64,000 nucleotides of DNA from Salinimicrobium sediminilitoris (GTDB lineage: Bacteria > Bacteroidota > Bacteroidia > Flavobacteriales > Flavobacteriaceae): assembly GCF_020866905.1 (NCBI RefSeq), contig NZ_JAIVCC010000001.1:91148-155147 (forward strand). The letters are read 5' to 3'. Shown here piece after piece: positions 36,258 through 58,145 of this stretch. The notes under the pieces are model-generated. The model did not search any database. It was not told the origin of the DNA and saw only the letters and a program-made list of their open reading frames with translations. The number at the start of each line of letters is the position of its first letter. The first letter of the stretch is position 1. A program made the translations under genes and the position numbers.

Positions 36258-36290
36258 AAAAGATCCTATAAAAGCACTTTTTGAAGATCA

Positions 36291-36921: not shown

Positions 36922-38514
36922 ATGGCAAAAGCAGACATTGATTTTGAAAAAGAACTCTGGGATGCAGCGAACGAATTGCGCGGCGCGGTATCTGAGAATA
37001 ACTATAAAAACTACATCCTTCCCCTCGTTTTCGTAAAACACCTTAGCGAACGCTATGAGGTGGTGCGCGAGGAATTAAAGGATCTTCTGAAAGATCCAAA
37101 CTCCGATTATTACACTACAGATAAGGAAGAGATCAATTACGTTCTGGAGGACCGGGATGAATACCGCTCCCGAAATACTTTTAAAATTCCTGAAACCGCT
37201 TCCTGGCAATATTTGAAGGACAATGCAGAGCAGGATGATATCAAAGTGAAGGTTGATGATGCCTTTGATGTGATCCAGGAACTATTGACGGGGTATAACC
37301 CGCAGCTGGTGAATATTTTGCCGCGGATCTTTGTGCGGAGTGAATTATCGCCCAAGCAAACCGGCGGAATTATAAACCTCCTCTCCCACCCCAAATTTTC
37401 TGAAAAGGAAAATCCGGAAAGCGATATCCTGGGCCGTATCTATGAATATTACATTGGCCGGTTTGCAATGGCTGAAGGATCGGGTGCGGGACAATTCTTT
37501 ACGCCCGGAAGTATTGTAAGGCTGCTGGTGGAACTATTGGAACCTTTCAAAGGCCGCATCTTTGATCCGGCTTGTGGAAGTGGTGGTATGTTTGTCCAGA
37601 GTTTGAAGTTTATCAAAGAACACGGCGGAAACAAAAAAGACATCGCGATCTATGGGCAGGAAATGACCGCACAAACCTTGCGGTTGTGCCTTATGAACCT
37701 GATGCTACGGGACCTTTCTTTTGATATTAAACTGGGGAATTCTTTGCTCGATGACAAATTTCCAAACCTGAAAGCCGACTATATCATTGCCAATCCGCCA
37801 TTTAATGTGAGCAACTGGCACCCTGAAGATTTGCCCGATGGCGACCCCCGGTTGTTTGGACCCAAGGAAGAATTTACTACAGATGGCAGCGCCAATTATA
37901 TGTGGATGCAAACCTTCTGGCACCATTTAAGCGACACCGGGACTGCCGGAATTGTTATGGCAAACGGCGCGATGACCTCCAACAATAAAGGAGAGAAAAA
38001 CGTGCGGCAGCATATGGTAGACAATTATATGATAGATGCCATTGTACGCCTGCCCGATAAGCTGTTCCTCACCACCGGAATCCCCGCCTGCCTTTTCATC
38101 CTGAGCAAAAACCGCGATGGGAAAGACGGCACCCACCGGGAGCGAAACAACGAGGTCCTGTTCCTGGACGCCTCCAAAATGGGCACAATGGCCAGCAGAA
38201 AACTGCGGGTTTTTAGTGATGATGATATTAATAAAATTTCAGAAACCTATCACAAGTGGCGCAATGTCACCCTGAGTCCCGTCGAAGGGTATGTGGATGT
38301 GGAAGGTTTCTCCAAAGCAGCAACCATAGCCGAAGTGCAAAAGCAGGATTACAAACTTACCCCGGGCATTTATGTAGGCACAGAAGCCGAAGAAGATGAC
38401 GGGATCCCTTTTGAAGAAAAAATGGAGAGCCTTAAAGCGCAGTTGCTGGAGCAGTTTGAAAAAGGGGAAGAATTGAAGGAAAAGATTAAAGCTAATTTTG
38501 ATAAAATTCTATAA
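36922..38514 (+). CDS. hsdM: Type I restriction-modification system DNA methyltransferase subunit HsdM
   Basis: This N6-adenine methyltransferase subunit has 530 aa. The N-terminal helical HsdM domain (about 1-150) begins LWDAANELRG. The SAM motif is DPACGSGGMFV (about residue 215) and the catalytic motif IV is ANPPFNVS (about 292). A C-terminal helical region with KLTPGIYVG (about 476) and a coiled coil ending ANFDKIL closes the protein. It modifies the sequence recognised by HsdS and is needed for cleavage by HsdR. In this locus hsdM is separated from hsdS by about 6.8 kb of inserted genes. A diverged duplicate of its last 40 codons lies at 40511-40633. Confidence 0.95.
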   Translation: MAKADIDFEKELWDAANELRGAVSENNYKNYILPLVFVKHLSERYEVVREELKDLLKDPNSDYYTTDKEEINYVLEDRDEYRSRNTFKIPETASWQYLKDNAEQDDIKVKVDDAFDVIQELLTGYNPQLVNILPRIFVRSELSPKQTGGIINLLSHPKFSEKENPESDILGRIYEYYIGRFAMAEGSGAGQFFTPGSIVRLLVELLEPFKGRIFDPACGSGGMFVQSLKFIKEHGGNKKDIAIYGQEMTAQTLRLCLMNLMLRDLSFDIKLGNSLLDDKFPNLKADYIIANPPFNVSNWHPEDLPDGDPRLFGPKEEFTTDGSANYMWMQTFWHHLSDTGTAGIVMANGAMTSNNKGEKNVRQHMVDNYMIDAIVRLPDKLFLTTGIPACLFILSKNRDGKDGTHRERNNEVLFLDASKMGTMASRKLRVFSDDDINKISETYHKWRNVTLSPVEGYVDVEGFSKAATIAEVQKQDYKLTPGIYVGTEAEEDDGIPFEEKMESLKAQLLEQFEKGEELKEKIKANFDKIL

Positions 38515-38575
38515 ATGTTCATTATATTTGAATGTTCACAATTTGTGAACGTAATTAAAAAATGAACAGAAAATA

Positions 38576-39583
38576 ATGAAGAGCATTGCCCCATATGATC
38601 CGGTACAGCATCTAAAAGAGATTTTGGAGCAACAGGCCCTGAATGTTTCTTTCAAGGAACTCTCTGCCAAGGCCGGCGGATTCGATGCGCGAATTCAGCT
38701 GAATGACCAGGTAATTTACCTGGAGACCAAACGTGAAATCACTCCGGTAAACCTTTCAAAGGTTCTTGAGGAAATCAAGACCAGATATAAGGAAAATAAC
38801 ATCCTGCTTGCAGGAGAATATATCACCCCAAAAGCAAAAGAATTGCTAAGGGAAAAAGAGGTCAATTACCTGGACAGGGCCGGCAATATGTATTTAAAGC
38901 TCAATTCGCTTCTTATTCATATTGACGGAAAATCTGCGCCTACTGTTCCGGGAAAATATAAATCCAGGGCCTTTTCCAAAGCAGGAGGAGCTGTAGTCTT
39001 TCAGTTTTTGCGGGACCCTCAACTGGTGAATGAGCCACAGCGGCTTATAGCAGAATATGCCGGGGTGTCTCTTGGTACAATCCCTAAAGTTTTTGAAGGC
39101 CTTCAAAAAGAGAAATTTCTTATAAGGCTCGACAAGAACAAATGGGAACTCTCTAATAAAGAAGGACTTTTACTGAAGTGGACCGAAGTGTTAGGTGAGA
39201 AAATATTGCCTTCTAAATTCCTAGGAAATTACAAACCGGTAGGGAGAAATATGCAAGAAATGTTAGCTGAAAAAGAAATAAGGGCAACAGGGCTTAAATG
39301 GGGAGGAGAACCCGCAGCTGCCCTACTCACCAATTACCTGATCGCGGAAAAATTCAGCCTCTTTGTACCAACTAAAGAAAACATTTTAAAAAAACACAAA
39401 CTGGTTCCATCTCCTACGGGGGAACTGGAGGTTTATGAGAAATTCTGGAACCATCCCGAAGATGACGACCTTCCTTACGTGCACCCCATTCTTATTTACG
39501 CCCAGTTGATGGCAACAGGTGAAAGCAGAAACATTGAAACAGCCGAAATTATATTAAATGAACACATCAGGCCCAACTTATAA
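38576..39583 (+). CDS. AbiEi-type antitoxin/regulator of a type IV toxin-antitoxin pair
   Basis: This protein of 335 aa has an N-terminal nuclease-fold-like segment (LETKREITPVNL, then NNILLAGEYITPKAKELL) and a winged helix near residues 155-205 (AEYAGVSLGTIPKVFEGLQKEKFL). The C-terminal domain resembles the AbiEi_C / COG4861 group. Its partner downstream is a nucleotidyltransferase whose start overlaps it by 26 bp, the usual AbiE arrangement. It begins 61 bp after hsdM. The probable role is antitoxin and autorepressor. The classification is from domain pattern and gene pairing, not a search. Confidence 0.75.
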   Translation: MKSIAPYDPVQHLKEILEQQALNVSFKELSAKAGGFDARIQLNDQVIYLETKREITPVNLSKVLEEIKTRYKENNILLAGEYITPKAKELLREKEVNYLDRAGNMYLKLNSLLIHIDGKSAPTVPGKYKSRAFSKAGGAVVFQFLRDPQLVNEPQRLIAEYAGVSLGTIPKVFEGLQKEKFLIRLDKNKWELSNKEGLLLKWTEVLGEKILPSKFLGNYKPVGRNMQEMLAEKEIRATGLKWGGEPAAALLTNYLIAEKFSLFVPTKENILKKHKLVPSPTGELEVYEKFWNHPEDDDLPYVHPILIYAQLMATGESRNIETAEIILNEHIRPNL

Positions 39584-40406
39584 AGCATACTCTTTTGCTC
39601 ATCACAAGGAAGTGTACCTGCTTCTGGAAACGACCTTCAGGAAATTTGGGATTTCCTATTATCTCATAGGTGCCAACGCAAGAGATGTGGCTTTATATAA
39701 GGCCGGACAAAAACCCACCCGTGCAACCGGGGATATCGATTTTGCAATAATGTTGCCCGATATTTCCACCTACGAAGCCCTGTTACAAGAATTGGTGGAT
39801 AATGGTTTTTTCCCGCAGAAAAAACAGGAGGGATACAGGATGCATCACCGGAAAACCAATACTCTTATTGACTTGCTGCCCTATGGTGGCATTGCAGGGA
39901 ACAATTTGGTACAGCTGCCCGGGACGGGAATAGAATTATCTGTAGTAGGTTTAGCTGAAGTTGGGGAGGAAATCCAGGGTTTTAAACATCCAGAAGGTTT
40001 TGCGATACCTGTTTCTCCTACCCACGGAGTGGTCATTTTGAAGCTGATCTCCTGGAGTGAAAGACCGGAACGCACAAAAGATCTCAAGGATATTAAAGAC
40101 CTGTTTAAAGCTGCCTGGAACCTGTATGAAGAAGAATTATTTCTGGAAGGTTCTCCTTATGCCGATATTTTTGATGCTGAAGATTTTCGGCAGGAAACAG
40201 CGGCGGCAAGAGTGATGGGACGAAAGATGCAATCTATCCTGGACCGGGACCAAAATTTAAAAAATTTGATCATTACCGAACTTGAAAAAGAACTGGGTAC
40301 CGGCACTGGTCCCAAAGTGCGTGAAATGGTAGCGGGCACAGATGATAATGTAGGAGAAATAAAAAATATATTTAGCGCATTGCTAAGAGGAATAAAAGAC
40401 AACTAA
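39558..40406 (+). CDS. AbiEii-like nucleotidyltransferase toxin
   Basis: This protein of 282 aa has a nucleotidyltransferase fold: YYLIGANARDVAL (the glycine-rich element, about residue 36), RATGDIDFAIML (Asp-x-Asp metal site, about 59) and a third acidic residue in TLIDLLPYGGI (about 104). AbiEii toxins transfer nucleotides to tRNA or other targets and cause growth arrest or abortive infection. It overlaps the AbiEi-like gene by 26 bp, which indicates translational coupling. The cassette is located between hsdM and a duplicated hsdM tail, so it was added to the restriction locus. Confidence 0.8.
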   Translation: MNTSGPTYKAYSFAHHKEVYLLLETTFRKFGISYYLIGANARDVALYKAGQKPTRATGDIDFAIMLPDISTYEALLQELVDNGFFPQKKQEGYRMHHRKTNTLIDLLPYGGIAGNNLVQLPGTGIELSVVGLAEVGEEIQGFKHPEGFAIPVSPTHGVVILKLISWSERPERTKDLKDIKDLFKAAWNLYEEELFLEGSPYADIFDAEDFRQETAAARVMGRKMQSILDRDQNLKNLIITELEKELGTGTGPKVREMVAGTDDNVGEIKNIFSALLRGIKDN

Positions 40407-40449
40407 TACGGCAGAACAGGAAAATATATAAATGAAAAATTCGGGGCAA

Positions 40450-40508
40450 CATCTCCCCTCCTTCGGAGAGCCTGTCCCGATTTTTTATCGGGAGGCCGGG
40501 GGAGGATT
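40450..40508. repeat. REP-like palindromic element
   Basis: An inner perfect stem CCCGAT (40476-40481) / ATCGGG (40487-40492) with a T5 loop is enclosed by a GC-rich imperfect pairing (ATCTCCCCTCC against GGGGGAGGAT). It lies between the AbiEii-like gene and the hsdM tail duplicate. The form resembles repeated extragenic palindromes, and it could also act as a terminator. Confidence 0.5.
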
Positions 40509-40510
40509 AA

Positions 40511-40633
40511 GAAGACGACGGAATCCCTTTTAAAGAAAAGATGGAGACCCTGAAAGCGGAGTTGTTAGAGCAGTTTGAAAAAGTTGAAGAATTGAAGGTA
40601 AAGATTAAAACTAATTTTGATAAGATCCTTTAA
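40511..40633 (+). pseudogene. Diverged copy of the hsdM 3' tail
   Basis: Forty in-frame codons plus stop read EDDGIPFKEKMETLKAE... and end TNFDKIL. They match the last 40 residues of HsdM (EDDGIPFEEKMESLKAQ...ANFDKIL) with about seven substitutions. The codon directly before is a stop, so no start exists. This is a tail left from a different hsdM allele. Confidence 0.85.
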
Positions 40634-40725
40634 AAGACGATTATTCAAACAGCACATTTAATATTTGACGACTAAAAAGCGAACGCCTAAAAACCAAAAA
40701 AGCTGTATAATCTAGCCGCTGATGA

Positions 40726-43700
40726 ATGAATAAAATAGAAAAAATAAAGCCACTTGTTGAATGGATACTTTCTTGGGTATTTAAGCTGAGGCTACGAAAA
40801 ACCTATTGGAGCATTGCAGTTCCTTTAGCATTGGTAATTCTAGGAGAAATCGCGAATAAGTTGGAGTTCGTTGTAATTGCAACAGCCAAACTTTATGAAG
40901 ATGCCAACGATACGTGGTTAGAAATATTTTGGGGTGTAATACATTTTTGGGTAAGTATAAACCTCCCTTGGTGGAGCATAATGCTCATCATTATTTTACT
41001 ATTTCTGTTCACATACGTATGGCTTCAAGAGATAAAGGCTAAAAAATCAGGGGTTGAAGTAACAGTTGAAAGTATTACAAGCAACATTTTCAACCGCCTT
41101 TCAAAAGATATTGATGACAAGATTGAAGGTATAAAGTCGGAGTTAACATTTCAACCTAATCAAAATTGGTTCAATGAGCAATGTAAATCATCAATTGATG
41201 ACCTTGGAAAAAGGTACACGCCTGAGCTAAATGTAAAACTTGAAGTATCTGAAATATTCGAAGGTCTAGGAAGAACCGAACAATTTAAAAGGAAGGTAAC
41301 TAAGCAATTTGATCAGTTTCTGATAAAAGGAAAAAAGGTATTAAAAAATCAACCTGAAGTTAAAGAAAGTCTAGAGAATTTAGAAAGTACCTTTGATGAA
41401 TTACAGGCTTTATTCCATAATATTGATTTCTTGGGAACTACTTCAATTCCTGTAAATGAATTTGAAGACTTATTGGACAAGACTCAAAGCTCTGTTCAAG
41501 ATATTTATGACTACTATATAACGGAAGAACGTAAAGTACAAAAAGAAAAAAATGATTACCAATATTATCATAAACACGGTACTGAATTAAGAAATATTAG
41601 AGAGTTTGAGCACGAGGTTTCTACTTTTCAAAATTTAATTCATAGCTCTTTATTTAAACTTGCGAATAATCCTTTTTTATTACTAGATGGTGAAGCTGGC
41701 ATTGGGAAATCACATTTGATTGGAGATATAGTTTCAAGGAGAATTAAAAAAGAACATCAAAGTGTTTTTCTTCTGGGTCAGCATTTTGTTACAGAAGAAG
41801 ATCCATGGACACAAATTTTCAAAAGACTTCAAATCAACTCTAAGTCTGAAGATTTTCTCAGAAAATTAAATCAACAAGCGGAAAAGTCAGGGAAGAGAAT
41901 AGTCCTTTTTATTGATGCGATCAATGAAGGTAAAGGGAACTACTTCTGGAATGAATTTTTGAAAAGCTTCGTTAATGGGATAAAGAAATATGAATGGCTT
42001 GGTCTTGTATTGACTATAAGAACCTCATACAAGAACTTAATTTTTCCTGAAGAAGAAAGAACTAGCTTAGATATAGTAGAACACCATCTTTATGGGTTTA
42101 GGAATATCGAATATGAGGCAAGTAAATTGTTTTTTGAGAATTATAACATTGAATTGCCTAATGTGCCATTGTTGCATCCAGAATTTCAAAACCCTCTCTT
42201 CTTAAAACTATTTTGTGAGGGAATAAACAAAGCTGGATTAACCCGAATTCCTGATGGTCTTCAAGGCATAACTTCAATAATCAGCTTTTTCATCAAAAAT
42301 GTAAATGTTGTTTTATCAAGGCCGAAAAGAGTTGGGTACTCGGATAGTTTAAACCTAGTACAAAAATCCATTAATGCTTTAATAAAGTTCAAAGTTGACA
42401 ATCAACTTAGATATATACCTTACGAACAAGCCTATAAAGTTGTCAATGAATCCATTTCAAGTTTTATTGACAAAAAAGGATTTATAGATGAATTAATTAC
42501 AGAAGGTGTACTATCAAAAAACCTCTTTTGGAAAGAAGCAGATGATTATGAAGAAGGAGTTTATTTAGCCTACGAGCGATTTGAGGACCATTTAACTGTT
42601 AAATATTTACTTGAATATTATCCTGAGTTAGAGAAAGAGTTTAAAGAAAATGGTAGGTTATATAAATACGTAGAAAATGAAAACGCAATTTATAGACATA
42701 AAGGACTAATCGAGGCTTTTTCAATTCAGGTGCCTGAAATAAAAGGTTATGAGTTTTATAACCTCATTCTTGATCTTAAAGACAAATATCCAATTGTTGA
42801 GTCTTTTGTTGAAAGCCTACTTTGGAGAAAGGTCGAAACCATTAATGAAGAGTCAAAACAATATGTAAACAACCATGTGTTTTCCTACCAAGGCACTTAT
42901 GACTATTTCTGGGAAACTATACTCGCTGTTACAGGAATACCGAACCATTTCTTTAATGCTCATTCTTTACATAATCACTTAATAAAATACTCACTTCCTG
43001 ACAGAGATGCTTCCTGGACTCAATTTCTTAAACATAGATTTACTGATGAATCATCAGTAAAACGCCTGATCGATTGGGCTTGGAGTGAAACAGATAAATC
43101 ACACATTTCAGATGAATCAGTTTTGCTATCTAGTATCACATTAACATGGTTTCACACTTCCACCAATAGAGAACTCAGGGATTGTTCCACAAAAGCACTA
43201 GTTTGCTTATTACAAAATAGGCTTGATGTATTGTTAGAACTCCTAAAAAAGTTTGAAGAAGTTAATGACCCTTTTGTATATGAAAGACTATTTGCTGTTG
43301 CTTATGGATGTGTATTAAGGACGGATCAAAGGGAGAAAATAATTGAACTAAGTGAATATATTTTTAAAACGGTATTTAGCGACCCAACAGGTGTAATTCC
43401 ACACATATTATTAAGAGATTACGCTAGAGGGGCAATCGAATATGCTCGTTACCTTGGAATTGCATTGAGTTTTGATTTATCAAAGGTTCGGCCTCCGTAT
43501 CAAAGTAATTGGCCAGAAGAAATTCCATCTTATGAAGAACTGAAAGAAAAATATAACAATGATAATTACAGAAACATATGGAGTTCTGTAATGGGATTTG
43601 GTGATTTTTCAAGATATACAATAGGCACTAATAGTGGTTCATCAGAATGGTCAGGTTGCAAAAAAGGCGAAACTCCAGTAGATAGAGAAGACGTGTTTAA

Positions 43701-45135
43701 AAATTTCAAGGGTAAATTAAATCCTGAACAATTAGAATTATTGAATTGTCTTGACCCGATAATAACTGAGGAATCTGATGAAGGTCTAAAACTAGGTGAT
43801 AGCATATATAGTTTTAAGACGGCAATTGGCAGGAAAACTGAAGAAGAGTTGAACCAAACAAGAGATGACTTCAAAAAATCATTAACAGCTGAGTTGTTGT
43901 CGGAATATGAGAAGGAAGTAGAGCCTTATTTAGATCACAATCATAAGATTATAAATACCGGAGAGTATTTTGATTTAAGGATTGCTCAAAGATTAATCCT
44001 GTCAAGGGTTATAGAACTTGGATGGAATCCAGAATTACATCTTTCATTTGATAATGAAATTGGTACAGGCAGGGGAAGAGGTACTACTCCTCACGAAAGA
44101 ATTGGGAAGAAATATCAATGGATAGCCTACTATGAATATATGGCCTTGTTATCTGATAACTTCATAAAACAAGAAAGATGGGGAGAAAAGAAAGAAAATC
44201 CATATCAAGGACCTTGGGACCCTTATGTTAGAGATATTGATCCGACAATGCTGATTAGTGAAACAGGAAGTTATGATGATGAGCAATCGCAAGATTTCTG
44301 GTGGGTTAACAACAAAGTATTTAATTGGGAATGTACAAACGAAAGCTGGGTAAATGATTCAAGTGTTTTACCTAATATGGAAGAAATCATTCAAATTAAA
44401 GATGATAAGGGAGAAGAATGGTTGGTATTGGAGGGTTATCCCTCTTGGTCAGAACCAAAAAAAATTGGTGAAGAAAAATGGGATCAACCACATAAAGAGC
44501 TTTGGTGTCATATTAGAAGTTATCTAGTTAAAGATGATGGATTCAATTCGGTTAAAAATTGGGCTATTGAACAGGATTTCATGGGTCGTTGGATGCCTGA
44601 AAGTGGTGACAGGTACGAAATGTTCAGCAGAGAATATTATTGGTCACCTGCTCAGAACTATTTTATGACTGAATATTATGGAGGGACTGAATGGACAGCA
44701 GTTCACGACAAAGAATCTGGAAAGTATGTAGCTGAAGTTAATGTAACTGCACAAGGCTTTTTATGGGAAGAAGAATTTGACAAATCGAAAGAGGAAACCA
44801 TTAGCTTTTTAAAACCAAGTACTGTTATACATAAAGGTATGGATTTAAAATACAGCCAAAGAGAGGGAGAATTTATAGACAATTCAGAAATGGTTCAATG
44901 TTTTGCACCAAATGTTTATCATGATTCGAAATCTTATCTGCTTGTTCGGAAAGATTCTTTTTTAAAGTTTCTAAATGAGAACAAATTAAAGGTTGTTTGG
45001 ACGATACTAGGAGAAAAGCAAATAATTGGCGGACGATCTTTTGGAACTGACTATCCAGGAAGATTAGAAATAAGTGGAGCTTACTATTTTGATGAGGAAG
45101 ATTTAATAGGAGTGATTAATACTAAGAATAAATGA
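40726..45135 (+). CDS. Large membrane-anchored STAND-like NTPase, candidate anti-phage effector
   Basis: This protein has 1469 aa. Two hydrophobic helices lie at residues about 26-50 and 78-102, then a coiled-coil/helical region to about 300. A P-loop NTPase follows: Walker A LLDGEAGIGKSHLI (about 320) and Walker B VLFIDAINEG (about 392), the latter being the STAND form. A long helical region then leads to a tryptophan-rich C-terminal part (GPWDPYVRDIDPT, about 1165). It lies inside a type I restriction locus. The architecture recalls Avs/NACHT-type sensors with an N-terminal membrane effector. No nuclease motif is seen. The coding sequence is visibly more AT-rich than hsdR. Antiviral function is inferred from context and domain type. 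Confidence 0.65.
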   Translation: MNKIEKIKPLVEWILSWVFKLRLRKTYWSIAVPLALVILGEIANKLEFVVIATAKLYEDANDTWLEIFWGVIHFWVSINLPWWSIMLIIILLFLFTYVWLQEIKAKKSGVEVTVESITSNIFNRLSKDIDDKIEGIKSELTFQPNQNWFNEQCKSSIDDLGKRYTPELNVKLEVSEIFEGLGRTEQFKRKVTKQFDQFLIKGKKVLKNQPEVKESLENLESTFDELQALFHNIDFLGTTSIPVNEFEDLLDKTQSSVQDIYDYYITEERKVQKEKNDYQYYHKHGTELRNIREFEHEVSTFQNLIHSSLFKLANNPFLLLDGEAGIGKSHLIGDIVSRRIKKEHQSVFLLGQHFVTEEDPWTQIFKRLQINSKSEDFLRKLNQQAEKSGKRIVLFIDAINEGKGNYFWNEFLKSFVNGIKKYEWLGLVLTIRTSYKNLIFPEEERTSLDIVEHHLYGFRNIEYEASKLFFENYNIELPNVPLLHPEFQNPLFLKLFCEGINKAGLTRIPDGLQGITSIISFFIKNVNVVLSRPKRVGYSDSLNLVQKSINALIKFKVDNQLRYIPYEQAYKVVNESISSFIDKKGFIDELITEGVLSKNLFWKEADDYEEGVYLAYERFEDHLTVKYLLEYYPELEKEFKENGRLYKYVENENAIYRHKGLIEAFSIQVPEIKGYEFYNLILDLKDKYPIVESFVESLLWRKVETINEESKQYVNNHVFSYQGTYDYFWETILAVTGIPNHFFNAHSLHNHLIKYSLPDRDASWTQFLKHRFTDESSVKRLIDWAWSETDKSHISDESVLLSSITLTWFHTSTNRELRDCSTKALVCLLQNRLDVLLELLKKFEEVNDPFVYERLFAVAYGCVLRTDQREKIIELSEYIFKTVFSDPTGVIPHILLRDYARGAIEYARYLGIALSFDLSKVRPPYQSNWPEEIPSYEELKEKYNNDNYRNIWSSVMGFGDFSRYTIGTNSGSSEWSGCKKGETPVDREDVFKNFKGKLNPEQLELLNCLDPIITEESDEGLKLGDSIYSFKTAIGRKTEEELNQTRDDFKKSLTAELLSEYEKEVEPYLDHNHKIINTGEYFDLRIAQRLILSRVIELGWNPELHLSFDNEIGTGRGRGTTPHERIGKKYQWIAYYEYMALLSDNFIKQERWGEKKENPYQGPWDPYVRDIDPTMLISETGSYDDEQSQDFWWVNNKVFNWECTNESWVNDSSVLPNMEEIIQIKDDKGEEWLVLEGYPSWSEPKKIGEEKWDQPHKELWCHIRSYLVKDDGFNSVKNWAIEQDFMGRWMPESGDRYEMFSREYYWSPAQNYFMTEYYGGTEWTAVHDKESGKYVAEVNVTAQGFLWEEEFDKSKEETISFLKPSTVIHKGMDLKYSQREGEFIDNSEMVQCFAPNVYHDSKSYLLVRKDSFLKFLNENKLKVVWTILGEKQIIGGRSFGTDYPGRLEISGAYYFDEEDLIGVINTKNK

Positions 45136-50243: not shown

Positions 50244-50293
50244 TTATAAACTAGAGATAATAAATTACTGCTGCCAACAGACTTCAATAATGA

Positions 50294-51253
50294 ATGGATG
50301 TAAAGAAAGGTAGTGTTACCAAAAGAAAGACTGATATGACCCCGCAAGAACTTGAAGAACTATGGGAAATTGAATGGGAGAAAACGAGAGATTTTCGATT
50401 AGAGTATGAAGAAGCAATTGAAAAGGAAACGCCTCTACCGACTACGTACATTATGTATGTTGAAGAAATTTGTGATATTAAATATGTTTCTTTTTATAAA
50501 GAATGGGTGAATAATGTGAACAGGTTAAATAATTTTAAAGAAAGATTATTTACCAAGATAGCCAACGAAATGCAATTTTATCTTTCGAAAAGGGAGAAAT
50601 TGAAATTTATAGGGGAAAGAACCACACAACTCCGGCAAAATTTTCAGAAAAACAATCTTAATCACCTTTTTACCTTTTCTAATTTTGAAGATCAAATGAT
50701 TAATACAGATTTTGTTGATTATGCCTATGAAAATTATGAAAATGTCGTGCATGAAAAATTCGTCCGCTGGATTGAAGAAATAAAACCACAGCGTCGTGAT
50801 GCTCAACATGCAATAACTAAGTGTAAAGAAATCTGGAATAACGACTTTTTTAAAGATTTTGGTAAGGTATTAGAAATACTGTCAGAAATTAAAATGTTAC
50901 AGTTGATCTATACAAAGATGGAAGGTCATAAAGAATTAGTGGATTTGAAATTTAGCCCATATCCAATGGTTTTTTCAGATGGTTACGGTCATAAATTGTT
51001 TAATTTTCTCTTGTCCTTTGAACCGAAAAGAAAAAAAAGCACAGCTTTTATTTCGAAGTATTTCTATCTCTTTCAAAAAGAGGGACTAATAGAAGAAAAA
51101 GCTCTTTGGGCAGACTTCTTTAGGTTTTTGGAAGAAGAGCATACCATTATAATAAAGAGAATTGATGAGAGAGCCCAACCTGAAGAACATGAATTCCATT
51201 ATTTTAAAAAAATTAAAATAAATTTTGAGGATAAGTACACTTCAATAAACTAA
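50294..51253 (+). CDS. Hypothetical protein (319 aa)
   Basis: This soluble protein is very rich in Lys, Glu and aromatic residues, with long helices (WVNNVNRLNNFKERLF, KLKFIGERTTQLRQNF). I identify no domain. A basic stretch FEPKRKKSTAFISKYFYLFQ near residue 235 may contact nucleic acid. It is a stand-alone gene between the restriction locus and the HTH/replication module, with 124 bp to the next gene. Similar proteins of 300-350 aa are often seen beside excisionase genes in Bacteroidota islands, which is only a weak hint at function. Confidence 0.6.
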   Translation: MDVKKGSVTKRKTDMTPQELEELWEIEWEKTRDFRLEYEEAIEKETPLPTTYIMYVEEICDIKYVSFYKEWVNNVNRLNNFKERLFTKIANEMQFYLSKREKLKFIGERTTQLRQNFQKNNLNHLFTFSNFEDQMINTDFVDYAYENYENVVHEKFVRWIEEIKPQRRDAQHAITKCKEIWNNDFFKDFGKVLEILSEIKMLQLIYTKMEGHKELVDLKFSPYPMVFSDGYGHKLFNFLLSFEPKRKKSTAFISKYFYLFQKEGLIEEKALWADFFRFLEEEHTIIIKRIDERAQPEEHEFHYFKKIKINFEDKYTSIN

Positions 51254-51377
51254 TAATCAACTACTATGAAGACTCACTTCGCATTTACTTCTCAAACACT
51301 TCACTTTAGTTTCGCATAAAAAGCAAGCACCTCATTTTACATTTGCTCATATAATTTTTAATTAAAAGAAATTAATC

Positions 51378-51674
51378 ATGAGCAAAACCATCACACAACT
51401 ACATGAAATCTCTCCCGAAGAATTGAGAAGAGAGATTAGAAATGACATTCGGCTTGAGCTGCAAGAATTGGCAGAAAAATTAACTCCGAAGGAACCGGAA
51501 ATCTGGATCACTAGGCAAGAGGCCGCCGAATTCCTGGGAGTATCCTTGGTCACGATTTATAATTGGTCCAAAGAAGGGGTTATCCATCCCTTTAAAATTG
51601 GCACCAGAATCAGATTCAAGAAATCTGAAATCCTAAAAGTATTACATAATTCAAACAAAAGAGCTTCAAAATAA
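51378..51674 (+). CDS. Helix-turn-helix excisionase-type DNA-binding protein
   Basis: This 98-aa protein has a winged helix-turn-helix (HTH_17/MerR-like) in its second half: WITRQEAAEFLGVSLVTIY (about residues 49-67) and a wing with HPFKIGTRIRFKKSEIL. The N-terminal half is a charged helix that may dimerise. This fold is common to excisionases and control proteins of Bacteroidota integrative elements. It directly precedes the helicase/primase gene, so it may control excision and replication of the island. Confidence 0.85.
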   Translation: MSKTITQLHEISPEELRREIRNDIRLELQELAEKLTPKEPEIWITRQEAAEFLGVSLVTIYNWSKEGVIHPFKIGTRIRFKKSEILKVLHNSNKRASK

Positions 51675-51741
51675 CTGGCAGGTTAATCTTGAAGCTCAAT
51701 TCTTTAACTCCCGGATTCGTACTCCGGAAATAATCACTATT

Positions 51742-53427
51742 ATGACAAATATACCTAAAAAAGACAACGGGAGCAATTCTTCTCAAAAAGCAAAGACTAA
51801 TCAGAAAAACGAAGCAACGGTAAACAATAGTCTTGAAGCTAAAAGCAAAGACAGTAAGACTAGAGAAAAACCTGCAAACAACGGCTCAACCGCTCATCAA
51901 CCGCTGGATCCAACCGCAGGTGCTCTTGACAGTTGCAACAGCAATTCAACTGCAAACCACTCGGGCGGTTGCAACGGTGATTCAGCTGCAGAGGACAGCA
52001 TCACGATTGATGACTTAGTTAATGAAGCTGAGCAATTAGAAAAAAAGATTTCCCTCTCCAATAATTTAGATTTCATCCTGCAAAACCTGGAGTTGAAAAA
52101 TTTTGAAACGGAAGCAGAATGGACTGATGATGAAAAACCCTTGCCGCGCAAATATTTCGTTGTTCTGAGCATACAGTTTATAATAGAGAAAGCAAGGGAG
52201 CTTGAACTGGATATCATTTTTAGAAATGGTTCAATTTACTTATTCAACAAGAGATACTGGGAAAAAGTTGATGAAGAAGAATTCCGATATTTCCTTGGTG
52301 AAGCTGCTTTAAAAATGGGAGCCGGGAAGCTTGAAGCGAAATATTACAGATTTAAAGACGACCTGTTTAAACAATTTGCGGGCGAGGGTAAGCTTCAGAC
52401 GTCTTTAGCTGATAATAACCAGGTAACCTTAATCAACCTACAAAACGGAACTTTTGAGATTTCGGAAGATGTTCAGCAGCTTAGAGAATTCCGAAAGGAA
52501 GATTTTCTCACCTACCAATTACCTTTTGAATATGAGGAAACTGCAAATATGGCCCTCTTCTGTAGGTTTTTAGATGAAGTTATACCAGAAAAGGAATTGC
52601 AGGATATACTTTCTGAATATCTCGGTTCAATCTTTGTCAAGAACAACGTACTGAAGCTTGAAAAAGCCTTGTTCTTATATGGTGGTGGATCCAATGGGAA
52701 AAGTGTCATTTTCGATATTATAAGTGCTCTACTGGGGGAAGAAAACTTTTCGAGTTATAGCCTGGACAGTCTTACTAAAGACAAGGATTCCCGGTCTATG
52801 ATATCAGATAAGCTTCTTAACTACTGCAGTGAAACAAGTACCTCAGTTCAATCGGAAATCTTTAAGAAATTGGTTTCCAGGGAGCCAATAGATGTCCGTC
52901 AGGTTTACAAGCAATCCTTTATTATGCGTGACTATGCCAAGCTGATGTTTAATGCCAATGAACTTCCTACGGACATAGAACACAACCACGCTTTTTTTAG
53001 ACGATTTTTGATCATTCCTTTTCGAATAACCATTCCGGAAGAGAGGCAAGATAAAAACCTTTCTACCAAAATAATCAGACATGAATTACCGGGTATATTT
53101 AACTGGATTCTGGCAGGTATGCTTCGATTACTGGAAAAGAAGAAATTTACCTCCAGCACAATTGTAGAAGAGGAAGTGAATAAGTTTAGAAGGGAAAGTG
53201 ATTCCGTGTTCAGCTTTATTGATGATAATGATTACCATAAATCCTGTACTGAGGAAATTAAGTTGAAGGAGTTATACCAGGAATACCGACAGTATTGCCT
53301 TGAAAATACCAACCGGCCTTGTTCTGATCGTACTTTCAGAAAACGTCTCGAAAACGGGGGTTTTGATACAGATCGCAAAAACACCGGATGGGTAGTTTTT
53401 GCAGAAAAAAAAGTTTCTGAAGAGTAA
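51742..53427 (+). CDS. P4-type phage/plasmid primase-helicase
   Basis: This protein has 561 aa. Residues 1-95 are low-complexity and hydrophilic (Asn, Ser, Ala, Thr rich) and the DNA there holds CAAC(C/G)G iterons. A D5_N-like region spans about 200-290. The superfamily-3 helicase domain has Walker A LYGGGSNGKSVIFD (about 315), a B motif region LNYCSET (about 358) and LMFNANELPTD (sensor-like, about 397). The C-terminal winged helix begins near 500. It is the probable replication initiator and helicase of the element. The primase gene follows 68 bp downstream. Confidence 0.88.
   Translation: MTNIPKKDNGSNSSQKAKTNQKNEATVNNSLEAKSKDSKTREKPANNGSTAHQPLDPTAGALDSCNSNSTANHSGGCNGDSAAEDSITIDDLVNEAEQLEKKISLSNNLDFILQNLELKNFETEAEWTDDEKPLPRKYFVVLSIQFIIEKARELELDIIFRNGSIYLFNKRYWEKVDEEEFRYFLGEAALKMGAGKLEAKYYRFKDDLFKQFAGEGKLQTSLADNNQVTLINLQNGTFEISEDVQQLREFRKEDFLTYQLPFEYEETANMALFCRFLDEVIPEKELQDILSEYLGSIFVKNNVLKLEKALFLYGGGSNGKSVIFDIISALLGEENFSSYSLDSLTKDKDSRSMISDKLLNYCSETSTSVQSEIFKKLVSREPIDVRQVYKQSFIMRDYAKLMFNANELPTDIEHNHAFFRRFLIIPFRITIPEERQDKNLSTKIIRHELPGIFNWILAGMLRLLEKKKFTSSTIVEEEVNKFRRESDSVFSFIDDNDYHKSCTEEIKLKELYQEYRQYCLENTNRPCSDRTFRKRLENGGFDTDRKNTGWVVFAEKKVSEE
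51815..51977. repeat. Iterons inside the helicase gene (putative origin)
   Basis: Seven CAACCG/CAACGG-type motifs (starts 51815, 51879, 51887, 51898, 51911, 51966, 51972) fall in 163 bp coding for the disordered N-terminal linker. The last two form CGGTTGCAACGG. The arrangement, an origin inside the initiator gene, is known from lambda O. The same motif occurs 14 times at 36291-36818. Confidence 0.6.
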
Positions 53428-53495
53428 CATTTTATACACCTTCTACACTAACCGTGTAGAAGGTGTTCCTGATGCAGGTCATTTAAAACCTTTTT

Positions 53496-54446
53496 ATGCC
53501 CCAATATCGATTTACTTTAGAACCATATATCTCCCAAAAGAACAGGTTTCAATGCCCTTCCTGTGGAAAGAAACATAGCTTCACTCGTTATATTGATCTG
53601 GAAAAGAAGGAGTACATTTCTGAAAATGTAGGCAAATGTAATAGGGAGCAAAAATGCGGCTATCACTTAAAGCCTAAAGATTTTTTTCAAAGTCAGACGT
53701 CTTTCGCAATTGATCATTCACACCAGAACACTACAATAAATCCAGCAGTCTTACGACAAGTTGCATTTCAAGCTAAAAGCAAATCGTTGCCTCCATCTTT
53801 TATTGAAGAAGAGCTATACCTAAAAAGTCTCGAAGGATCATCTGCCAATAATTTTCTTGTCTTTCTTGAGGCGGTAATTGGTAAGGATGCTTTAATAGAT
53901 GTCAGAGAAAAATATAGAATAGGTACTTCTAAAAAATGGAAAGGAACAACAGTTTTCTGGCAGATTGATGAACAGAACATAGTCCGCACAGGAAAAATGA
54001 TGCTTTACAACAAGTATAACGGAAAGAAACAAAAGGTAAATTGGGCTCATTCGGTTCTAAAGCTACCAGACTATAACCTTAAACAATGTCTTTTTGGGCT
54101 TCACCTGCTGAATTTAGATAAGCAGAAGGCAATTGCCCTGGTGGAAAGTGAGAAGACAGCTATAATCGCCTCCATTGCTTTTCCTGAATTTATCTGGATG
54201 GCTACTGGCGGACTTATGAATCTGAAAGCTTCAATGCTTAAACCTTTAGCAAATAGAAAGGTGATCCTTTTTCCTGATGCCGGCTGTTACAATACCTGGA
54301 ACGAAAAAGTTGGTGATCTGCCGAAGAATATCCAGTACCTAATTTCTGACCTTGTGGAGAAAAAAGCTACTTCTGAGGAGAAACAAGAGGGATGGGATAT
54401 TGCGGATTATATATTGAGGATTTGGGGAGGAAAAGACTTGACTTAG
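53496..54446 (+). CDS. DUF6371-like zinc-finger/TOPRIM primase-type protein
   Basis: This protein has 316 aa. The N-terminal zinc-binding module has CPSCGKKHSFTRY and a second Cys pair in CNREQKCGYH (residues about 20-55), like DnaG/P4 CHC2 fingers. The C-terminal TOPRIM-type fold has ALVESEKTAII (about residue 222) and VILFPDAG (about 261), giving the acidic metal site. It follows the helicase gene and likely makes replication primers. A degenerate copy of its last 65 or so codons lies at 57945-58145, beyond an inserted two-gene cassette. Confidence 0.82.
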   Translation: MPQYRFTLEPYISQKNRFQCPSCGKKHSFTRYIDLEKKEYISENVGKCNREQKCGYHLKPKDFFQSQTSFAIDHSHQNTTINPAVLRQVAFQAKSKSLPPSFIEEELYLKSLEGSSANNFLVFLEAVIGKDALIDVREKYRIGTSKKWKGTTVFWQIDEQNIVRTGKMMLYNKYNGKKQKVNWAHSVLKLPDYNLKQCLFGLHLLNLDKQKAIALVESEKTAIIASIAFPEFIWMATGGLMNLKASMLKPLANRKVILFPDAGCYNTWNEKVGDLPKNIQYLISDLVEKKATSEEKQEGWDIADYILRIWGGKDLT

Positions 54447-54700
54447 GACGATAATTATGGTCATGAAAAAAATTTCTATTAAGTTCCATAAAATCGTAAC
54501 TCATTGAATAACACATTTTAACACTTCTTTAAACTTTGCTGTCAATTATATTTTCCATATTTATAAAATATAATTTACTTCTCTAGAGTAAAACTGAGCA
54601 GCCTCATCCGAGGATATTAACGAAATCACCCCCCTTTATTAAAAGATTTGCTGGATTCTCCTTCTGGCGATATCTATGTCGAATTTTTAATTTCAAATTT

Positions 54701-56635
54701 ATGCCGGGACCAGCAGTACATTACATCGTAGGTAAAAAATTAAGAGAACAGTATCCTTTCATTATTGATTACGGAGAGGGACCACGCCGGGAAAAGTTTT
54801 TATTTTCCCAGAACATCAGGAATCAAATGGACGAAAATAGAACTCATCTCAATTTTGGAACCTTAGGGCCTGATTTTCTGTTTTTTAACATTAAAGACTG
54901 GCCCCAAGGCAATTTATTGCCGGTAAGAAAAATGATACGTTTCGCAGAAATACAAAAATCATTAGAGGCCAAAGTAGAAGAGAGTTTCCCCATTTTAATA
55001 AGGATTAAGGAACTAAAAGATCAACTTGGAGAGAGGTTACTTGAGGAAGTACGTAACTCTCCCTTGCTATCTGCAATAAAGCAACTACTTGAAGACGTAA
55101 AAGCAATCTTAGAGCTGATGACGGGAATAGTCAACCAAGGAATAGAAGATCTGGTTACTAGCAACATAGACATATACGGCTTTTTAAAAAGTCCCCTCCA
55201 AAATTGTGAAGCCAAAGAAAATTGGTGGTGGTTTGACATCCTACATTACAATAAATCAGGTCAATTTTCGCAATACTTACTTGAAAATAGCAGAGATAAT
55301 CCTGCTTTACATTCGTACGCAATAGGTTACCTCTCACACTTTGCAGCTGACGCGGTAGGTCATCCTTATGTAAACAACATAGTTAGAGGCCCCTATCGCA
55401 CTCACTCCCAAAGACATAGTGTAGTTGAAAAATTTCAGGATGTTTCAGCATTTTTAAAATTTGACAATTTGGACTTTAATACCAGCGAACTTCATGATAA
55501 ATATAAATTTACTGAAGCTGTTTATGATATATTTTCTGGTGAGCGTATTAATGAAGTCGATTCAATTATTGATAGTTTAACACCGGGGATTACCGATGTA
55601 GGATTACCAGAGGATCTAGCCAACCTTTTCTCAGAGGCAACGAAAGAAGTATATAAACAGAATGGGGAGCATCTTTTCGGAGGTGGAATGGAGCCAGCAG
55701 AGGTTGATGCTGCTTACCGCCTATGGTACAGTTGGTTTAAAAGTAGTACTAGTGAGGCTATTTTACCAGATTCACTGCCTGATCTACCACCTTTAAGTGA
55801 AGATTTGCGCGGAGTGTGGGAAGATTTTAAAAACAGATTTAATAATGCTCTTAGCGAATTTGATGATGCAGTCGAAGATTTATTTTCGAGTAATGGATCA
55901 ACTTTTAGCTGGGATAGTCTGGTTAATCTGTTTAAAAAACTGGAAAGGGTAATAAAAGCAGCAGCGGCAGCAGCAGCGGCAGCCATTGAGGCAATTGAGG
56001 ACTCCATTGCGACTATTTCCACACATTCCACGCATTGGATATTGAATCAGATTTATCAAGCTTTGTATAGCATATACGATTATTTTCGATTATCCGTATC
56101 ACTAAACGGACTAGCCTTTCCGAGCCCGAGATATTTAAATGATTTGCGCGTACAACATATGCTAAACCCTCAGACGCGAGACATCAGGGGAAACATCCTA
56201 AACAACAACTGGGGCTTTCCCCTTAAAAAAATGGATGTAGGTGAAGGAATTTGGCGTGTTGCTCCACAGGAGTCCCATCTTGTTTATCCCTCACCTCTAA
56301 ATATTGAGCAGGAAGCTACAACGCCAAGTCCTGTCAGTTATTCACAGGAGCCACACACTTATTACATTGATCAGGATCTAGGGATTTCTCTACCATTTAT
56401 TAGGAATATAGCTCCTATTACTGATTTCAACAACCACAACTCCATTACAAAAGGTGAACTTATGGGAAACGCAGTAGAGTTAACAGGAGCTTTGTATGAT
56501 TTGTACAACAAAGGAGAAACAATTCCGAATATAAATTTAGATGCAGATAGAGGGATTGGATATCCATGTTGGGAAGCATCTGGATGCGTTAATGACAACA
56601 TTAAAGAACCCGTTAACCTTAAGTTCAACACTTAA
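54701..56635 (+). CDS. Zinc-dependent phospholipase C-like protein with extended C-terminus (644 aa)
   Basis: The protein starts MPGPAVHYIVGKKL and carries the zinc-PLC/S1-P1-like pattern: N-terminal His, GPDFLFF (about residue 66) and YAIGYLSHFAADAVGHP (about 205-221), with the His-x3-Asp-x3-His spacing. Such proteins hydrolyse phospholipids or nucleic acid backbones. There is no signal peptide; the N-terminal Pro-Gly-Pro is the mature-like start. The rest has helical segments with an Ala-rich stretch of about nine residues (around 425), coded by a GCAGCGGCA-type simple repeat, and a Pro/Asn-rich C-terminus. It is paired with the barrel-protein gene 11 bp downstream and inserted between the primase gene and its tail duplicate. 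Confidence 0.68.
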   Translation: MPGPAVHYIVGKKLREQYPFIIDYGEGPRREKFLFSQNIRNQMDENRTHLNFGTLGPDFLFFNIKDWPQGNLLPVRKMIRFAEIQKSLEAKVEESFPILIRIKELKDQLGERLLEEVRNSPLLSAIKQLLEDVKAILELMTGIVNQGIEDLVTSNIDIYGFLKSPLQNCEAKENWWWFDILHYNKSGQFSQYLLENSRDNPALHSYAIGYLSHFAADAVGHPYVNNIVRGPYRTHSQRHSVVEKFQDVSAFLKFDNLDFNTSELHDKYKFTEAVYDIFSGERINEVDSIIDSLTPGITDVGLPEDLANLFSEATKEVYKQNGEHLFGGGMEPAEVDAAYRLWYSWFKSSTSEAILPDSLPDLPPLSEDLRGVWEDFKNRFNNALSEFDDAVEDLFSSNGSTFSWDSLVNLFKKLERVIKAAAAAAAAAIEAIEDSIATISTHSTHWILNQIYQALYSIYDYFRLSVSLNGLAFPSPRYLNDLRVQHMLNPQTRDIRGNILNNNWGFPLKKMDVGEGIWRVAPQESHLVYPSPLNIEQEATTPSPVSYSQEPHTYYIDQDLGISLPFIRNIAPITDFNNHNSITKGELMGNAVELTGALYDLYNKGETIPNINLDADRGIGYPCWEASGCVNDNIKEPVNLKFNT

Positions 56636-56646
56636 ACTCTCTTGGC

Positions 56647-57876
56647 ATGAAATTTTTTCTGAAGAATTTAAACGACGAAATTTCCGAATTAAATAAGGAA
56701 ATTAAACATAATTATAGACATTTCTTAAACTACCAAACAAGTGAAGAAAAAAGAAGTGAAGACGTAGCTTTAGATGAAAAATATTTCAAGGGAGATGTCT
56801 CTGAATTTCAGGCCAAGTCTTATTTAGTAGTTCCCAATATAGGTATTAGGCTATTTTCTTCATCTGGAGATGTTCTGAATTATATATCGGCAAGTACAGA
56901 ATATTCGATTGAAGTCCAGCTGAAAAATATGGGTGATCTTCATGTTCCTAATGTCAATATTGATTTCTTTTGTAGCCCAAAATATCAAGACCATAGGGTA
57001 AAATTTCTTGTTCATTCTGGCGGTCTGTTAAATTTAGGTGGGGGCAGCGGAGGTCCACCTTTTGTAACGGGAAGATTACTTCACGGAACAATTAGTATTG
57101 GAGATCGAATAAAACTGCTGGGCAAAGAAGAAAATTTCTTTGCACGAATTAAAGATGTTTTAGTATTAAATAAAGCCCGCCTACATACGATTAAGGAAGG
57201 CTGGAGTGAACAAGATCAAATAATTCTCCTTTTGGATCTAAACAATGATCACATAGATAAATTTCAAGAAATTTTGAGTCAGTTCCCTATGCTGGTGGAA
57301 GCACCCGAGGAGGATCAGGAGTCAGGGATGTTCAGATTTCGTATTAAAGATATCTTTACTATTACTGGACGTGGCAAGGCTATAGCAGGGACAGTGGAAC
57401 AAGGTGCCATTCAATCTAACGTAAAAGTGGACCTACTTACCAATTCATATAGCGACCAGAGACGCGGTAACCAATACGGAAAAATGCCATTAAAATTTGA
57501 AGAAGGACTTGGAGCTCGAAATGAAACTGCTTTTTTGTTTCATTCTTTGGAAACCGAAAAAATTAAAGAAGGGGATATAATAATAAAATCACAAAGAGAG
57601 AATTTCTCATCTGAAATTTCTAATACAAATAATCCTGATACTGTCCAAGAAATGGATTTTATTGGAAGCAAGAGAACACATATCAATGGATTTGAAAATA
57701 AAACTGTAAGATTTGCTTGGTCATCCCCAGATCATAAGAATAGGAGAGAATTTAAATTTGTAGCTCGTGCTTATTCGACGATGCCTATAGATATGCCCGC
57801 CAATTTTGATGATTTAAATCCTGAAAATTATCGGCACATTGGTGGGAATAGTTTTCCTTGGCAACCAACGAATTAA
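56647..57876 (+). CDS. Protein with two EF-Tu domain-2-type barrels (409 aa)
   Basis: I cannot name the protein. Residues about 55-110 look like a beta-sandwich/CARDB-type repeat (EYSIEVQLKNMGDLHVPNVN). A first translation-barrel-like unit is at about 138-185 (GRLLHGTISIGDRIKLLGK). A clearer one spans about 227-290 (MFRFRIKDIFTITGRGKAIAG, then VEQGAIQ), the signature of EF-Tu/EF-1A domain 2. No GTPase motifs are present, so it is not a translation factor. There is no signal peptide. It is coupled with the zinc-PLC-like gene and perhaps forms a carrier or scaffold for it. Confidence 0.6.
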   Translation: MKFFLKNLNDEISELNKEIKHNYRHFLNYQTSEEKRSEDVALDEKYFKGDVSEFQAKSYLVVPNIGIRLFSSSGDVLNYISASTEYSIEVQLKNMGDLHVPNVNIDFFCSPKYQDHRVKFLVHSGGLLNLGGGSGGPPFVTGRLLHGTISIGDRIKLLGKEENFFARIKDVLVLNKARLHTIKEGWSEQDQIILLLDLNNDHIDKFQEILSQFPMLVEAPEEDQESGMFRFRIKDIFTITGRGKAIAGTVEQGAIQSNVKVDLLTNSYSDQRRGNQYGKMPLKFEEGLGARNETAFLFHSLETEKIKEGDIIIKSQRENFSSEISNTNNPDTVQEMDFIGSKRTHINGFENKTVRFAWSSPDHKNRREFKFVARAYSTMPIDMPANFDDLNPENYRHIGGNSFPWQPTN

Positions 57877-57944
57877 TTCAATCCTTTCAATTTCCGGAAT
57901 TCCTTTGGAGGCTACGAGTCGCCTAAGAACTTGACTTGAAAAGA

Positions 57945-58145
57945 GACATTCTTGAGCCAATTGCCAATAGAAAAGTAATTCTTTTCCCTGATGCAGGATG
58001 ACACGAAGCGTGGAACGAAAAGGTTGCTGATCTGCCGACCAATATCCAGTAATTAATTTCTGACCTGGTAGAGAAGAAATTTTCTGCCGACGAGAAACAG
58101 GAAGGATGGGATATTGCGGATTATATTTTGAGGATTTGGAAATAA
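57945..58145 (+). pseudogene. Degenerate copy of the DUF6371-like primase 3' end
   Basis: The frame reads LEPIANRKVILFPDAG, stop, HEAWNEKVADLPTNIQ, stop, LISDLVEKKFSADEKQEGWD, IADYILRIWK and a final stop. It aligns with the last 65 or so residues of the gene at 53496-54446 and has two internal stop codons. There is no start. The 392 bp that follow (58146-58537) are very AT-rich and I see nothing in them. Confidence 0.88.

Follow-up and report, generated by a model that had tools for sequence, protein, structure and literature searches.

Orphan 3' gene tails behind cargo genes in a type I restriction island of Salinimicrobium sediminilitoris as probable remnants of displaced alleles

Old gene ends left behind by incoming DNA are known from Rhs genes, in which displacement of the C-terminal tip leaves old 3' ends behind the core and homologous recombination has been proposed (Jackson 2009, PMC2935791). 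For effector–immunity modules of the type VI secretion system (T6SS) of Vibrio cholerae, sequential displacement by homology-facilitated illegitimate recombination has been proposed (PMC5361080). Restriction genes of Helicobacter pylori are reported to undergo insertion with long target duplication (Nobusato 2000, as cited in PMC1643837), and hotspots supplied through recombination in the core genes beside them have been described (PMC5635113). Here, we describe orphan 3' gene tails in an integrative island of Salinimicrobium sediminilitoris, within a 64,000-nt stretch of contig NZ_JAIVCC010000001.1 (positions 91,148 to 155,147) that we call the window. The hsdM and hsdR genes of a type I restriction-modification operon and a DUF6371 primase-like gene are each followed by cargo genes and then by a 41- to 250-nt copy of their own 3' end. 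These tails are probably remnants of resident alleles that were displaced by a new allele together with its downstream cargo.

A prediction made from the letters of the window had proposed this arrangement of core gene, cargo and 3' tail three times over, and all three cases held when alignment scores were compared with the best of 300 shuffles. The hsdM tail, predicted at 40511-40633, aligned at 40509-40634 to hsdM 38390-38515 with 87% identity over 126 nt (score 172; shuffle best 34). The primase tail aligned at 57948-58139 to 54234-54425 with 81% identity over 192 nt, plus a weak gapped extension to 57891 (score 200; shuffle best 37), and it is as degenerate as predicted, with two in-frame stops in the 64 compared codons and a third just upstream. 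The hsdR tail is the weakest of the three, with the smallest margin above the shuffles (80% over 41 nt, 50196-50236 versus 49489-49529; score 42, shuffle best 30); it exists and lies in frame with the end of hsdR (..KDWPMDA versus ..RDWPMEA) but is shorter than the 50172-50243 originally claimed. Each tail thus resembles its gene end more closely than expected by chance.

To place the window among related loci, we used the full-length HsdM of each of 122 hsdM loci as its own query (E up to 1e-4); 117 loci had at least 1.5 kb downstream. A 3'-terminal hsdM fragment lay downstream of the gene in nine loci, namely the window, three loci from metagenome assemblies (L044, L070 and L102) and five from named isolates (L036, L037, L097, L098 and L099), so the scan for orphan 3' tails beside a complete gene that the original prediction had proposed did find them. 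An upstream 5'-terminal fragment was present in two loci (L035, where the head consists of two adjoining pieces, and L101), and no middle-only or opposite-strand hsdM fragment was detected in the 122 loci at this cut-off. All nine tails belong to the 83 loci with an HsdM 51-100% identical to that of the window, compared to none of the 39 loci at 24-45%. In a corresponding survey with each locus's own HsdR (106 loci, 73 with 1.5 kb downstream), tails were found in L057 and L099, the hsdR tail of the window being too weak for the cut-off, and only 1 of 23 complete primase loci carried a primase tail. The proposal that such events are a general route of gene gain is therefore supported for the closer hsdM family (9/83) but not for distant hsdM loci or for the primase, whose tails we reject as a common pattern.

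If a tail were a duplicate in neutral decay, its differences from the parent gene would be about equal across codon positions. Over 13 tails, the differences instead numbered 92, 55 and 194 at the first, second and third positions. For the nine hsdM tails (that of L102 needs an indel in the DNA alignment), the fractions were 0.26, 0.17 and 0.58, near the gene-to-gene baseline of complete hsdM genes (0.21, 0.14 and 0.65; last 50 codons, 372 pairs) and away from equal thirds. None of the nine contained a stop in the 28-72 codons compared (product of neutral probabilities, 2e-4), and non-synonymous codons were below expectation in the hsdM tails of the window (P = 0.005) and L099 (P = 0.007) and in the hsdR tail of L057 (P = 0.0002). 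Fresh duplication with neutral decay is rejected as a general account by the codon positions and open frames, although it is possible for single tails.

Ranking the tails against complete genes gave a second line of evidence. For the tails of L036, L037 and L070, the hsdM gene of the same locus ranked only fifth, sixth and fifth of 120, with genes from other genomes matching better; for the hsdR tail of the window, the own hsdR came second by a small margin. Because differences favor third codon positions and these tails rank other genomes' genes first, most tails appear to be displaced alleles rather than decayed duplicates, as the original prediction had held; the window's hsdR tail alone lacks the codon bias.

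The hsdM junction of the window retains more than a tail. Behind the AbiEii stop come, in order, the 5' head of an hsdS gene, a palindromic stretch, the hsdM tail, the anti-phage gene Avs2 and then complete hsdS and hsdR. Salegentibacter flavus (L036) carries the same AbiE pair, hsdS head, palindrome and hsdM tail; in Gillisia limnaea (L037), the cargo is another one (a KilA-N protein), the junction is similar and a 53-codon frame that opens as hsdS runs straight into an hsdM tail of ~49 codons. The start of the head overlaps the AbiEii stop (TAATG in L036, TAATA in the window). AbiEii is directly followed by hsdS in six other loci (L051, L069, L072, L083, L084 and L109; hsdS is cut by the contig end in L083 and L109), so the piece before the tail would represent the order of a donor operon severed just inside hsdS, whereas the hsdM tail with Avs2, hsdS and hsdR behind it would represent the order of a second, resident operon. 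The junction can thus be read as hsdM1-AbiEi-AbiEii-hsdS1 head / hsdM2 tail-Avs2-hsdS2-hsdR2.

The palindromic element has one copy in its own genome (up to two mismatches over 20 nt), which rejects an abundant repeat at the junction. Its predicted DNA folding is unremarkable in the window (z = -1.1) and L036 (z = -1.0), and that of the L035 copy is moderate (z = -2.3). In L035, a twin of the palindrome lies in frame within the variable HsdM linker (11342-11386, about codons 448-464), and given this twin, the element may belong to the hsdM tail allele; otherwise, it was added at the join. The same linker region is interrupted in L074 (10001-12109), where ~540 nt separate the two parts of the hsdM match (residues 447/454). 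L035 also contains, in series, an hsdM end, a broken AbiE unit, an hsdM head and a complete hsdM (5748-12307), with an IS200-like transposase gene behind.

A displacement of larger extent is visible in genome G404, of the same genus. Its island has an integrase 93% identical in amino acids to that of the window, the same 14-nt terminal repeat twice (L194 15160 and L130 5579) and the same right half, with an unrelated type I operon in between whose HsdM and HsdR share ~24% amino acid identity with those of the window. This operon is preceded by a broken start of a window-type hsdM with its leader (window 36847-37009 versus L194 2100-1939, 72%; 88 nt of this are hsdM and the remainder is leader), and ~45 nt past the foreign hsdR stop lies a broken 126-nt tail of a window-type hsdR (77%). 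Here, the resident hsd operon has been displaced, and nothing but its two ends is left. The codon bias over 13 tails, the ranks of the L036, L037 and L070 tails and G404 all mark remnants of a displaced gene, and together with the hsdS heads, they support the original prediction that an incoming allele plus cargo replaced the resident gene and left its old tail.

We observe the joins, where they lie, that several tails are allelic and that one whole operon was displaced; how the joining took place, we infer. Homologous recombination within the core gene or ahead of it would integrate one side of the incoming DNA. The other side, ending shortly past the last stop of the cargo or just inside the next donor gene, would join the last 40-280 nt of the resident gene with little homology, giving the junctions that are seen. 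For hsdM, a donor carrying hsdM-AbiEi-AbiEii-hsdS would have been severed no more than ~13 codons into hsdS, and its cut end would have been fused to the last part of a resident hsdM that had Avs2-hsdS-hsdR behind it. Similarly, a new hsdR with the 191-amino acid gene would have been joined to the end of a resident hsdR preceding the 319-amino acid gene, and a new primase with the phospholipase-like pair to an older primase end. Since the complete gene would retain its promoter side, with cargo added behind, the core gene would stay functional in recombinants, which may explain why 3' tails outnumber 5' heads.

Junction geometry was examined across loci. The nine hsdM tails begin between 104 and 221 nt before the stop, with similar starts in L037 and L102 (147 nt) and in L070 and L099 (104-105 nt). 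Between the last cargo stop and the tail there are 11-51 nt in L070, L098 and L099 (hsdM), in L057 (hsdR) and at the hsdR of the window (24 nt), and 79-350 nt at the hsdM of the window, L036, L097 and L102. For the primase of the window, the distance is 15 nt to the start of the weak match and 72 nt to the well-aligned part, and a 100-codon cargo frame of L044 runs in frame into the tail. Among eight near relatives, hsdM identity was mostly 84-100% per 100-nt bin up to column 1300, with no crossover mapped. Synonymous divergence peaked in the last 3 of 18 windows of the eight near hsdM genes and in the last of 20 windows of five hsdR genes (codons 851-900 almost equal it); no such 3' rise was seen among 11 more divergent hsdM genes. 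Because divergence peaks there, gene ends may travel with the downstream cargo rather than with the gene body, as these alignments suggest. A test for mosaic structure in the window's hsdM placed no single crossover, since the 3' quarter is more divergent in all near pairs and not just in those with the window.

Several observations weigh against displacement. The hsdR tail of the window lacks coding bias (differences 0/4/4 over 13 codons; non-synonymous P = 0.83), and the third-position excess taken alone was not significant for the hsdM tails of the window (P = 0.07) and L099 (P = 0.33) or the hsdR tail of L057 (P = 0.32). The own parent was the best match for six of the nine hsdM tails, that of the window included, and for the L057 and L099 hsdR tails. 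The comparison of tails with parents and homologues therefore came out divided: L036, L037, L070 and the window's hsdR tail prefer other genes, but six hsdM tails prefer their own parent. Tails that rank the own parent first fit either an allele missing from the sample or an old duplicate, and some tails may be old duplicates. Because of these six tails and the unbiased hsdR tail, our confidence in displacement is slightly lower, and that in duplication higher.

Further such points come from the junctions and from other genomes. In the six remaining hsdM tail loci, we found no hsdS head ahead of the tail. A cargo-free locus with the tail allele as a full-length gene, sought as hsdM directly before Avs2 and without AbiE, was not found in 397 genomes. 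Avs2 relatives reached the cut-off in 3 of these 397 (the genome of the window, G286 and G050); the Avs2 unit (40646-45194) is 83% identical in G286, and no hsd gene was present in 17.9 kb of G286 or on the 7-kb G050 contig. The incoming operon of G404 has no usable hsd homology, so an anchor in the hsd genes is unlikely for that event. The hsdM tails comprise at most 73 of about 530 residues, and such uniform shortness is not predicted by a random join within the resident gene; it could arise if recombination removes longer repeats or if long untranslated stretches within an operon are selected against. No strain pair from before and after an event was found, and donor and recipient are inferred from other genera. 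Finally, when 388 genomes were searched for the ends of hsdR and hsdM, with 20 kb examined per piece, G011 yielded a 53-residue orphan hsdR tail (L198 9741-10397) that adjoins a 136-amino acid integrase fragment, with no complete hsdR in the 20 kb; this tail could be the edge of an island.

The hsdM blocks might also have a more active role, and we raise this tentatively. A block of hsdM, cargo and hsdM tail could be a portable cassette, insertable behind a related hsdM without an integrase or transposase, because hsdM homology at both ends would allow ordinary RecA recombination to insert it. A single 3.7-kb block, reaching from the start of hsdM through the tail, is common to the window and S. 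flavus (89% DNA identity). No similarity was found in the 1.3 kb before hsdM or between the tail and the hsdS leader, after which hsdS and the start of hsdR are similar again. A shared block bounded by hsdM sequence is as this reading predicts, the comparison being thin, at two genomes.

Among alternatives to displacement, the one that fares best, though we regard it as unlikely, is that a single crossover placed two whole operons or islands in tandem and that a deletion then took out the DNA separating the first hsdS head from the second hsdM tail, which gives the same data pattern as displacement. It yields exactly the order of hsdS head and hsdM tail, one Arenibacter genome has two such loci on one contig (L057 and L059), and an island with an integrase could circularize. 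However, no second full-length hsdM match was found beside hsdM in the 122 loci, and the deletion would need to stop near gene ends each time.

Somewhat more doubtful is insertion with long target duplication, in which cargo enters near the 3' end, duplicates 50-280 bp and the copies then diverge. It produces the same geometry, and restriction genes of H. pylori are reported to move in this way (PMC1643837). The six hsdM tails that match their own parent best and the unbiased hsdR tail of the window agree with it, as do tails or repeats that remain close to the parent (the L057 hsdR tail at 94%, L098 at 88-93% and 56 nt of L096 at 96%, the last below our survey cut-off). Pooled divergence nevertheless tracks coding constraint rather than neutral decay, three of the nine hsdM tails are closer to other genomes than to their own parent, and the hsdS heads at three junctions (the window, L036 and L037) are unexpected from duplication of hsdM.

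It is improbable that the tails are retained because they are useful, either as a short translated leader for translational coupling with the next gene or as a small HsdM C-terminal peptide. The L070 tail forms a 36-codon frame that begins 6 nt past the Fic stop and whose end runs into the start of a KAP NTPase gene, and the L044 tail ends beside the hsdS start. A comparable case is G120 (L200 9520-9897), where an in-frame 125-codon hsdM fuses residues 2-52 to 459-528 and its stop overlaps a KAP NTPase gene start by TGATG, with no complete hsdM in 20 kb; this fusion is possibly a translated leader left from a dead restriction operon. On the other hand, the next gene is 56-187 nt away or on the opposite strand in five of the nine hsdM loci (the window, L037, L098, L099 and L102), and the window's primase tail and the L099 hsdR tail contain stops. 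Usefulness may account for persistence in some loci but not for origin, and translational coupling, which fits some loci alone, is rejected as a general reason for tails. Least probable is that a recombinase inserted the cargo site-specifically at gene 3' ends, with the tail as the displaced attachment (att) side: integrases often target gene 3' ends, the island as a whole is integrated at the 3' end of a tRNA gene and has a 14-nt repeat, the G011 tail adjoins an integrase fragment and some tail starts are alike, but starts vary among the nine hsdM tails with no fixed crossover point, three junctions hold an orphan hsdS head and no recombinase occurs in the annotated gene-to-tail cargo (AbiE, KilA-N, AlbA_2, Fic, helix-turn-helix (HTH), PD-(D/E)XK-like, HU-like and proteins of unknown type), so the site-directed insertion that the original prediction had offered as its alternative is disfavored, the G011 integrase fragment being the exception.

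The island that contains the three arrangements carries an integrase and direct repeats at the 3' end of a tRNA gene (Table 1). The 14-mer GTGACCTCGACAGG occurs at 27319 and 61786 and nowhere else in the window, and repeats the tRNA-Arg 3' end. HsdM, HsdS and HsdR are all present, with Pfam scores far above cut-offs, and the gene identities proposed from the letters alone were correct (N6_Mtase/HsdM, AbiEi_2, AbiEii below threshold, Methylase_S, HsdR, DUF6371 and Zn_dep_PLPC).

Table 1. Coordinates of the island, its genes and the orphan gene ends in the window
Feature	Position	Strand	Evidence and remarks
Integrative island	27319..61799		tRNA-Arg 3' end; 14-nt direct repeat at both bounds; 34 kb
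Tyrosine integrase of island	27509..28774	+	Pfam Phage_integrase
hsdM, complete	36922..38514	+	Pfam N6_Mtase, HsdM_N; probably the incoming allele
Cargo 1, AbiEi-AbiEii-like pair	38576..40406	+	Pfam AbiEi_2; AbiEii match sub-threshold
Orphan hsdS 5' head	40404..40438	+	blastn E 7e-8 versus L037 hsdS start region; alignment
Palindromic element, hsdS head/hsdM tail junction	40444..40508	+	Similar in L036 and in L035 hsdM linker
Orphan hsdM 3' tail	40509..40636	+	Alignment; open across 39 compared codons
Cargo 2, Avs2 (STAND) anti-phage gene, 1469 aa	40726..45135	+	PADLOC Avs2, 1647 bits
hsdS, complete	45275..46531	+	Pfam Methylase_S
hsdR, complete	46528..49530	+	Pfam HSDR_N, SWI2_SNF2, T1RH-like_C
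Cargo, 191-aa protein	49597..50172	+	No Pfam or PADLOC match
Orphan hsdR 3' tail	50196..50236	+	Alignment; own hsdR ranks 2 of 94
319-aa gene	50294..51253	+	Distant relatives (23-34% aa) in Planktosalinus and G404
Backbone: HTH protein and D5-like helicase (DUF5906)	51378..53427	+	Pfam
DUF6371 primase-like gene, complete	53496..54446	+	Pfam DUF6371, Zn_ribbon_16
Cargo: Zn-dependent phospholipase-like gene and 409-aa gene	54701..57876	+	Pfam Zn_dep_PLPC; 409-aa gene without Pfam match
Orphan primase 3' tail	57891..58143	+	Good alignment from 57948; two stops in 64 compared codons
tRNA-Arg (acg), integration target	61786..61860	-	ARAGORN
aa, amino acids.

A Planktosalinus island (L125) has the same backbone as the window: an integrase (73% DNA identity), hsdM, a single 998-amino acid cargo gene, hsdS and hsdR, then a relative of the 319-amino acid gene, the HTH protein, the D5 helicase and the primase. 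No hsdM, hsdR or primase tail was detected in this stretch, which reaches 2.2 kb past the primase (hsdM and hsdR were scanned in L041, a duplicate of L125). The 319-amino acid relative directly follows hsdR in Planktosalinus and follows the orphan hsdR tail in G404. In G400 (L131 9480-10160), two degenerate primase 3' pieces lie in tandem near tRNA-Arg with no complete primase in the surrounding 20 kb, as if two displacements had hit one place.

We also scanned 1,313 frames of at least 150 codons at 123 loci blind to gene identity; these loci were picked for hsdM, so the counts give no genome-wide frequency. Same-strand matches to the C terminus numbered 21 downstream of their gene (19 genes) and 4 upstream, compared to 3 N-terminal matches upstream and 2 downstream; one C-terminal match was on the opposite strand, 15 matches covered middle parts and 25 most of a gene. 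Some of the 21 downstream C-terminal matches resemble repeats or paralogues (L034 and L096). Behind a 385-amino acid gene in L096 (6652-11188), two orphan tails and two TgpA_N-like genes alternate, an arrangement that looks like serial partial duplication. L057 (2853-8237) has a D5-like helicase gene (DUF5906) with an orphan 3' tail 3.9 kb downstream, in addition to its orphan hsdR tail. In the HsdR survey, a distant HsdR-like gene in L152 had a 5' piece upstream. From the 388-genome search, the G241 piece, a middle part of hsdR (residues 797-930) with no complete hsdR in 20 kb, has the appearance of an ordinary decayed copy outside the tail pattern, and an hsdM piece of G365 at a contig edge was not used.

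Defence islands gain and lose genes quickly, and many of the gains occur without mobile-element genes. Orphan 3' tails may offer a readable record of such gains, marking the site of the join, the displaced allele and the accompanying cargo. If the cassette reading is true, type I restriction operons of Bacteroidota would be cassette platforms that move defence genes between islands; if the tails act as homology arms, these operons would serve anti-phage genes as landing sites that propagate themselves.

Among the titles and abstract openings listed in our literature search, mostly from openly accessible journals, none concerned orphan hsdM or hsdR tails. We rate the process of displacement as known (Rhs, T6SS) and its variant at a type I restriction operon as new. 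As in Rhs genes, a conserved core is kept, new DNA arrives downstream and old 3' ends stand in a row behind (PMC2935791); whereas the 3' tip of Rhs genes encodes the variable protein part, the whole core gene would arrive here, the tail is conserved in sequence without evident function and the cargo consists of separate genes. For the T6SS modules, an upstream homology anchor and a downstream illegitimate join are proposed, as they would be here, with remnants, including an effector 3' end, shifted back (PMC5361080), whereas our case concerns a type I restriction operon and an island primase in Flavobacteriia, with junctions of hsdS head and hsdM tail and no immunity gene kept. Long target duplication shares direct target repeats that flank defence genes without a transposase, but several of the repeats described here appear to be diverged alleles rather than fresh duplicates. 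Similar to the hotspots with recombination at flanking core genes (PMC5635113), cargo would be exchanged without mobile-element genes through homology in conserved neighbors; a double homologous crossover should leave no tails, whereas here, tails and heads would mark the non-homologous side.

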